From NCBI GenBank assembly GCA_016235815.1, contig JACRIM010000015.1, forward strand, positions 1 through 32,571: a stretch of DNA of 32,571 nucleotides, read 5' to 3'. The stretch's first letter is position 1. Each line of letters begins with the position of its first letter. The notes under the pieces are model-generated. The model searched no databases and was not told the DNA's origin. It worked only from the letters and a program-made list of their open reading frames with translations. Shown piece after piece: positions 1-1,780 of the stretch. A program made the position numbers and the translations under genes. Origin of the DNA: Planctomycetota bacterium. Its GTDB lineage: Bacteria; Planctomycetota; Phycisphaerae; UBA1845; UTPLA1.

Positions 1-158
1 ATCCGCACCGCACTCTTGCCTTTCAAAAAACCCAGCGTGTGCGACACGCTGTACTTCGGCGGGATGCTCAGACACAGGTGGATATGGTCCGGCATCGCCC
101 GGCCCTCGATCAACTCCACCCCACGCTGGCGGCACAGGTCAGAGTAAAAGGGGTCATT
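1..158 (-). pseudogene. IS200-type Y1 transposase fragment, cut by the window edge and lacking its N-terminus
   Basis: Reading the minus strand from 158 down to 1 gives an open frame whose sequence is typical of the IS200/IS605 TnpA (Y1 HUH single-strand transposase) family. It contains SDLCRQRGVELIEG, then MPDHIHLCLSIPPKYSVS, then GFLKGKSAVR. The HIH in MPDHIH is the HUH metal-binding pair. The catalytic tyrosine would lie beyond the window edge. An in-frame TAG at 161-159 and the absence of an ATG before the MPDH codon mean the usual N-terminal 40-60 residues are missing. I infer a truncated remnant, although the part outside the window cannot be seen. The family call is firm; whether it is active is not known. 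Confidence 0.75.
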
Positions 159-950: not shown

Positions 951-1261
951 TTTTTTGCGTCCTTTTGCGGGCTTTCGCACTATTTTGCGGGGGTGTTTTT
1001 CCCTATCTGGATCCCGTATCAGTCTGGGGCGCGGGCACCGACCAGAAAACGCTATGGATCGTTGTGTATTTTCGTAACCATAGGATTTGCAACAGGTTAC
1101 AGACGCATGCGCGTTGATGGTGCAACATCGAACATCAAAATAATGGGCCATTTTTCAAGGGAATACCCGGTCTTTAGTTAACCGCCTCCCCTTCGTGGCC
1201 GAGAAAGCGGGTATCCCCGGTAATGGGCCGGGAGTCATCGAACCGTTCGAAAGGACAGAAA

Positions 1262-1654
1262 ATGGCATTTCGATTTACGAAGACGAACGCTACGAAAAAG
1301 GCGTTCCGCACACAGGTGAGCCGGAAGCAGAACATGTTCAAGCGCTTCAAGAAGCGATTTGCTTCGGCCACAAACCCCACCGAGAAGCGATTCTGCCGCT
1401 CGGAAGCCAACAAGATCTGCAAGCAGCTCAAGACGTTTGCCAAGCAGTATCGCACGTTCGGCTTTGGCACGACCAGCTGGATCACCAAGAACTACAACAT
1501 GACCAGCTTCACCAAGGGCAACGCCCGCAAGAACACGAAGCGGACCTACGGCCGACGCACGAACAAGACCTATGCTCGCAAGACGCGAACGTGGTCGCGC
1601 AGCCGATTCAACCGCTCGAACAGCAAGGCCCGCAAGAGCTATGCGGCCTGGTAA
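1262..1654 (+). CDS. Ultra-basic, aromatic-rich small protein (possible nucleic-acid binding)
   Basis: This 130-residue protein has 20 Lys, 18 Arg, only 2 Glu and no Asp, so its net charge is about +36. It also has 20 aromatic residues (12 Phe, 5 Tyr, 3 Trp) and many Thr, Ser and Asn. The basic residues are spread along the whole chain rather than in a tail, often as R/K next to F, Y or W. I recognise no family: it lacks the Ala/Pro/Lys pattern of H1-like proteins and the HU fold signature. I chose ATG 1262 because AAAGGA sits about 8 bases upstream; an in-frame ATG at 1223 has no such site. Codon use (AAG, CGC, ACG) is that of a real gene. It stands alone and is followed by a strong terminator. 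Binding and compaction of DNA or RNA is an inference from composition only. Confidence 0.75.
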   Translation: MAFRFTKTNATKKAFRTQVSRKQNMFKRFKKRFASATNPTEKRFCRSEANKICKQLKTFAKQYRTFGFGTTSWITKNYNMTSFTKGNARKNTKRTYGRRTNKTYARKTRTWSRSRFNRSNSKARKSYAAW

Positions 1655-1724: not shown

Positions 1725-1780
1725 GGAGCCAGTGCTCAAAGGGCGGCGGAGCCGAGTGAGCACTGGCTCCTGCTATTTTT
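1725..1780 (+). terminator. Rho-independent terminator after the basic-protein gene
   Basis: A perfect 14-base-pair stem (1725-1738 with 1757-1770) with an 18-base loop is followed by TGCTATTTTT. It lies about 70 bases past the stop codon of the basic-protein gene and ahead of proC, so it separates the two transcription units. Confidence 0.8.

Follow-up and report, generated by a model that had tools for sequence, protein, structure and literature searches.

Nucleoid condensation tied to a cell stage is described in Chlamydia, where sigma-28 ChIP-seq is reported to yield only hctB and tsp, and where the hctB product (HctB, or Hc2) is found in elementary bodies (EBs) and condenses DNA (PMC12282069). 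Hc2 is described as composed of lysine-rich pentamers (PMC2848022), and knock-down of hctB alone is reported to change little (PMC13317200). The C. pneumoniae hctB promoter fits TNAAG and GCCGATA with a 15-nt spacer, the minimal -10 being GCC or CGA (PMC3333780). The published sigma-28 consensus is TAAA-N15-GCCGATAA, also given as TAAAGTTT-n11-GCCGATAA (PMC2859248, PMC8325347). The E. coli aer gene is reported to use GCCGACAT; thus, GCCGAC works as a sigma-28 -10 (PMC2859248). Chlamydiae and planctomycetes are placed in the same PVC group of phyla (PMC3444138). In the planctomycete Gemmata, a tomographic study reports HU as two sequences, finds no homologue of histones and leaves open the nature of particles seen along the DNA filaments (PMC3440768).

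We analyzed a stretch of 32,571 nt from a Planctomycetota bacterium (assembly GCA_016235815.1, contig JACRIM010000015.1), hereafter the window, that contains a gene for a small ultra-basic protein. This gene is a concrete, family-specific candidate for planctomycete nucleoid compaction, with a promoter-like element and a leader that can be tested.

The gene, its product and its distribution

The following features of the gene and its product were delineated:

Positions 1249 to 1255, forward strand: Shine-Dalgarno-like GAAAGGA, from the sequence.
Positions 1262 to 1654, forward strand: coding sequence of the 130-residue ultra-basic protein (130 residues plus stop), from orthologues, composition, alignment and dN/dS.
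Positions 1295 to 1456, forward strand: predicted helical hairpin, residues 12-65 (helices 12-35 and 39-65), from AlphaFold, with invariant Q23, F26, R28, R32, E41, F44 and E48.
Positions 1517 to 1651, forward strand: predicted disordered K/R/S/T/Y tail, residues 86-130, acid-free and ending in SYAAW, from the model and the alignment.
Positions 1725 to 1780, forward strand: intrinsic terminator, a 14-bp stem followed by TTTTT, from folding energy.

An earlier note, made from the letters of the window, had drawn attention to this frame, and a recount reproduced exactly its coordinates, its length and its composition (K 20, R 18, E 2, D 0; net charge +36; 29.2% K+R). The note had also described aromatic residues along the entire length; the count of 20 stands, and an even spread does not hold across the family, as Phe makes up 10.3% of the N-terminal part and 0.5% of the tail. 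The ribosome binding site that it had assigned to the gene is present as GAAAGGA, six bases before the ATG, and so is the strong terminator, in which positions 1725-1738 pair with 1757-1770 (-39.9 kcal/mol, z -6.35; 0 of 200 shuffles equally stable). A simple terminator scanner does not list the stem at 1725-1770, presumably because the inner part of the stem-loop is larger than its loop limit. The gene downstream encodes pyrroline-5-carboxylate reductase. Upstream, at 796-951, the window carries a tandem array of approximately 22 copies of the 7-base unit CTCAGGA, and at the contig end (positions 3-95, reverse strand) it carries a fragment of an IS200-type transposase (Pfam Y1_Tnp, E 3.7e-7).

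A protein search detected one full-length orthologue per genome in all 17 genomes of the host family (12 genera), its own genome included. The orthologues are 36-47% identical, with E values from 2e-12 to 4e-23 outside the own genome. Searched against the order, a profile of the 17 orthologues recovered the same 17 and nothing credible in 97 other genomes; against a sample of the phylum, it found nothing credible in 391 other genomes. The N-terminal domain alone, searched against a sample of the class, found 16 family genomes (one was not drawn) and none of 381 others. It should be noted that these profile searches scored the best candidates of a first look, up to 36 per genome for the order, 10 for the phylum sample and 14 for the class sample, so very diverged relatives can be missed. 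Several weak matches were rejected. In the protein search these were matches in three genomes of the order (E 0.031, 0.064 and 0.076; two have stops inside) and a second match in one genome (G012, E 0.022), which contains stops. The profile matches in the order (E 0.005 and 0.008) and in the phylum sample (E 0.003 and 0.004) contain internal stop codons and correspond to the C-terminal part of the profile (position 54 onward). The suggestion of a lineage-specific protein is thus borne out at the level of the host family; the protein is not planctomycete-wide, as the samples searched yielded no credible match beyond this family. The profile search that the earlier note had proposed recovers homologues, and these have the same charge pattern, the tail being acid-free in all 17.

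Using the Nei-Gojobori method, we obtained dN/dS of approximately 0.2-0.4 in six of six tested pairs of close relatives (for example, 0.025/0.085 and 0.042/0.193), and in all six pairs the ratio was lower in the N-terminal domain than in the tail. Judged by these comparisons, the ultra-basic reading frame is a real gene under purifying selection.

The orthologues share a domain of approximately 75 residues in which G69 and W73 are invariant, as are the hairpin residues listed above. In the AlphaFold model, pLDDT is approximately 90 for the hairpin and below 50 for most of the tail, and the picture was the same with a second orthologue as the query. The tail varies from 38 to 74 residues across the 17 orthologues; its 1,000 residues, taken over the 17 species, include no Asp, Glu or Leu and consist largely of R (24.1%), S (18.0%), T (15.0%), K (10.0%), A (9.4%) and Y (4.5%). 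The only acids of the window protein are E41 and E48, and Glu is invariant at both positions (17/17), as if acidic residues had been purged except at two structural places. The C-terminus is Ala-Trp in 15 of 17 orthologues, often as YVAW (SYVAW in relatives), and VAC in the other two. Such a nearly constant end on a variable tail is perhaps a recognition tag for a protease or a partner.

Structure searches with Foldseek and VIA-align against the PDB and viral models returned generic helical hairpins only, among them two-helix folds of EncB, designed repeats and CNOT3 (Foldseek best E 2.1; VIA Z up to 9.2, a level that unrelated helical proteins have in common), and no nucleic-acid-binding fold was matched with weight. 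Sequence searches gave nothing significant in Pfam for any of the 17 orthologues, or in NCBIfam, PHROGs (best E 0.04) and PADLOC for the window protein, which also has no match among PDB sequences. The earlier note had named a known ribosomal or phage family as what would speak against a new architectural protein; we looked for both and found neither, as there was no ribosomal match in Pfam (17 orthologues) or NCBIfam (window protein only) and no match of the window protein in phage records (tblastn). A pattern search of viral contigs found none either, and there was none in plasmids. Among open-licence papers, no title or opening of an abstract that we found describes the protein.

The promoter-like element and the leader

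Upstream of the gene, the following elements were found:

Positions 1178 to 1182, forward strand: -35-like TTAAC, its TAAC (1179-1182) corresponding to TAAA in the sigma-28 consensus, from conserved spacing and a sigma-28 scan.
Positions 1198 to 1205, forward strand: -10-like GCCGAGAA, commonest family form GCCGACGA, CCGA being invariant in 15 of 15 aligned leaders.
Positions 1216 to 1232, forward strand: leader hairpin 1, family core GGU-ANNGG-ACC (here GGU-AAUGG-GCC), from folds and a flank-swap test.
Positions 1238 to 1250, forward strand: possible leader hairpin 2, UCGAA CCG UUCGA, adjoining the ribosome site, from stem scores and folds.

The promoter-like element, TAAC-N15-GCCGA, starts 83 nt upstream of the ATG and had escaped the earlier note. 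Taken as 1179-1182 plus 1198-1205, it matches 10 of the 12 positions of TAAA-N15-GCCGATAA. The TTAAC-like and CCGA elements are 21 nt apart in 15 leaders, aligned gap-free there, and reading of the other two gives the same distance (with TCAAC in L011 and TAAAG in L017); the -35 is TAAC in most orthologues. When 180 nt upstream of each orthologue were scanned with the consensus, the element was the best or joint best site in all 17. Its mean score was 8.53 of 12. In base-shuffled sequences, the best site scored 7.17 on average, and 0 of 300 shuffles attained 8.53. The controls, upstream regions of 165 further likely genes from these loci, had a mean of 7.16, with 48 reaching 8 and 12 reaching 9, whereas 15 of the 17 orthologues reached 8 and 10 reached 9 (rank-test p 9e-8). 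With 48 controls at 8 and orthologues that are non-independent, the scan is weak. Of 10 flagellin upstreams scanned in the same way, nine reach 8 and one reaches 10; for three of these flagellins, the highest score belongs to a site other than the flagellin promoter. The conserved promoter-like element fits the sigma-28/WhiG consensus, a reading that draws on the flagellin upstreams and the consensus scan. We had first read it as an ECF promoter, and an ECF factor may be the alternative.

Every one of the 17 family genomes encodes flagellins. A strong FliA/WhiG match (223-250 bits) occurs in 16 and a weaker one (184-206 bits) in all 17, the incomplete genome G004 having the weaker match only. 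Among 27 readable flagellin upstreams (30 loci fetched), 10 contain a promoter of the type GAAAGTC-N12-GCCCGATA within approximately 300 nt. The -35 of our gene is placed alike relative to CCGA, but its letters differ from the flagellin type, so the gene may be read by a sigma paralogue. Five regions around the weaker FliA-type sigma offered no lead; in four of the five (L187-L190), this sigma follows a gene of 417-451 residues.

No visible regulon emerged, since the element is not in excess elsewhere: TTAAC-N16-CCGA has 17 matches in the own genome versus 30 for a reversed control, and CTYAACY-N15-CCGAC shows no excess over its control in the 17 genomes. A regulon of very few members would give such a result, as in Chlamydia, where sigma-28 serves two promoters (PMC12282069); so would a motif that is wrong. 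One match that recurs in a sister species lies, as judged by eye, inside a LemA-like gene. In a genome of another family, a clear CTTAAC-N16-CCGACG is found upstream of a response-regulator-like gene (L097, 1501-1543).

Directly 3' of the promoter-like element lies hairpin 1, with the core GGUANNGGACC; this position suggests that transcription would start at its foot. It appears in the predicted fold of all seven leaders tried. Its own flanks pair better than swapped ones (49.0 versus a mean of 35.4; 1 of 5000 permutations, 13 distinct leaders), in a test on related sequences that allows a 3' bulge and uses a scoring scheme devised for this analysis. A rigid column-wise test of an ungapped stem was not significant (54 of 500 shuffles reach the covariation score), because a bulge of one to three bases moves the outer stem. 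The loop motif is lost in L011 and L017. Hairpin 2 is supported on average: its mean stem score is 4.44 in the 17 leaders, base shuffles average 3.33, and 0 of 500 attain the leader value. Taken singly, only 6 of 17 leaders fall below 0.05; the hairpin is part of the best fold in four of seven, and its sequence varies between lineages. When whole leaders are folded, most energies are unremarkable (z from -2.64 to +0.94, seven leaders).

A covariance model of the promoter and hairpin 1 was built on 15 of the 17 leaders, leaving out L011 and L017 with their degenerate loops. Searched against 114 genomes with stricter filters and the best 46 candidates scored per genome, it recovers its own 15 by construction, and among the matches listed no other site scores near them (next best E 8.8e-4). 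Behind 15 further loci fetched from this search, no family-like gene was found. At gathering scores, no Rfam family was matched in the nine sources searched.

The CsrA consensus is ANGGA, and CsrA-bound flagellin leaders are known. The leader studied here resembles them in having a hairpin with GGA near its loop before a purine-rich ribosome site; it differs in that the core of hairpin 1 is ANNGGA, not ANGGA. We rejected CsrA control through hairpin 1, as the loop misfits ANGGA and the core GGTANNGGACC is absent from the 10 flagellin leaders examined. The gene csrA is present in 15 of 17 genomes, and a CsrA-controlled flagellin system is likely. Ten flagellins (L108, L110-L115, L123, L132 and L135) are preceded by a sigma-28 site and have leaders, 127-260 nt long, that end in TTCAGGGAGGAAYC; separately, in 15 of the 15 genomes having csrA, a different flagellin gene is found within approximately 1 kb of it.

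Neighborhood and competing explanations

We compared 17 surroundings of the gene, in the window and in 16 relatives, taking approximately 8 kb in either direction or as far as the contig reaches. No neighboring frame of at least 90 residues was matched in three or more of the other surroundings, and the first and second neighbors, read by eye, differ between genera. The 5' region travels with the gene, and its neighbors are not conserved across the 17 surroundings, in agreement with the single-gene unit proposed in the earlier note. The gene and its orthologues make up a new protein family, restricted to the host family and equipped with a coherent regulatory unit.

Kept as a single gene in every family genome searched, with a sigma-28-type promoter-like site and a folded leader, it makes a good candidate for a protein that packs DNA or RNA at a particular stage. 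Our preferred explanation, to which we give an even chance, is that of a nucleic-acid-condensing protein, most likely of the nucleoid, that would be made at a particular cell stage. A polymerase of the sigma-28/WhiG type would transcribe the gene when a motile or another specialized cell form is made; the mRNA would start near hairpin 1, which could protect the message or allow its translation to be tuned. The helical-hairpin domain may serve as a fixed scaffold, possibly a dimer, while the arginine-rich tail would coat DNA (or RNA) without sequence preference and neutralize its charge, and this coating could compact or silence the nucleic acid alongside ordinary HU. An architectural role on DNA is plausible, and both the sigma-28-type promoter-like site and the parallel with chlamydial hctB make it more so. 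HU genes, separate from the ultra-basic gene, are found in 17 of 17 family genomes; therefore, a second compactor is not obviously needed, which counts against this explanation. An HU gene precedes the ultra-basic gene by 420 nt, in the same orientation, in two genomes of one genus (L054 and L056) and speaks for a nucleoid protein; against this, in the third genome of that genus (G016) there is no HU on the contig of the gene.

A lineage-specific ribosomal or hibernation factor, or another RNA-binding protein, with the leader giving translational feedback, is unlikely, albeit with some substance. Basic helical domains with basic tails are common in ribosomal proteins, and the conserved leader hairpin travels with the gene. 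Some of the weak structural matches are ribosome-bound helical proteins; for helical bundles, however, intermediate Z values carry little information. The gene upstream in L052 resembles rnpA by eye, which would suit an RNA role. On the other hand, no ribosomal protein family is matched, no ribosomal protein gene was recognized by eye among the first and second neighbors in the 17 surroundings, and a sigma-28-type promoter would be odd for a ribosomal protein.

The same promoter-like site, together with flagellin genes in every family genome, one of them approximately 15 kb from the gene on the same contig (G007), could indicate an accessory protein of the late flagellum or of motility, produced together with flagellin. 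We consider this rather improbable: the promoter-like element differs from the flagellin type, there is no match to a known family, and no flagellar gene was recognized by eye among the first and second neighbors in the 17 surroundings. Furthermore, flagella occur far beyond the host family, whereas the gene was not found outside it in the samples searched. The charge logic of a cation-rich tail would apply equally to an organizer of another cytoplasmic polyanion, e.g., polyphosphate or a storage granule. This is very unlikely, as no linkage to polyphosphate or PHA genes was recognized by eye among first and second neighbors and no family was matched.

A phage, plasmid or defence origin, which a small orphan gene and the IS200-type fragment at the contig end might suggest, is scarcely credible and largely refuted by the distribution, with a single full-length copy in all 17 genomes and no relatives in phage records, viral contigs, plasmids or PADLOC, and nothing significant in PHROGs. 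Finally, GC-rich genomes yield long basic frames by chance, but a spurious frame has practically no probability here and is refuted by the orthologues, dN/dS below 1, the conserved 5' region, the ribosome binding site and the terminator.

Comparison with sigma-28 promoters, HU and Hc2

The nucleic-acid-condensing protein that we favor can be set against three described systems. Its promoter-like element shares with sigma-28 (FliA/WhiG) promoters the TAAA/GCCGATAA layout and the spacing; the difference lies in the -35, which is TAAC in most orthologues, unlike the flagellin promoters of the same family. With HU, it shares the character of a small basic nucleoid protein (a candidate one here), and the HU gene is adjacent in two genomes. 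However, the HU profile (PF00216, Bac_DNA_binding) is not among the families matched by the 17 orthologues at E <= 1, and these genomes encode HU separately.

We propose that the protein works like chlamydial Hc2, which is thought to act by coating and compaction; the proposed likeness is one of mode of action. Both proteins are small, very basic and variable in length, and both have an acid-free, highly basic region, which here is the tail, predicted to be disordered in two models. Sigma-28 reads hctB, and the present gene has a candidate site of that type. The protein described here differs in its predicted helical-hairpin N-terminal domain, its R/S/T/K tail, its Ala-Trp end and its leader hairpin. 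Pfam includes an Hc2 family. None of the histone-like Pfam families is matched by the 17 orthologues at E <= 1; with no profile linking the two, we do not class the protein as an Hc2 member.

A bolder version, which we hold as tentative and somewhat doubtful, is that this would be the planctomycete family's own developmental chromatin protein, an acid-free, arginine-rich condenser driven by a factor of the sigma-28 family when a specialized cell form, e.g., a motile one, is made, with its dose set by the 5' hairpin. If the protein does condense nucleic acid in one cell form, stage-specific chromatin with a switch of the sigma-28 type would not be confined to Chlamydia, and the same logic in Chlamydiae and Planctomycetes would represent either an old PVC habit or convergence.
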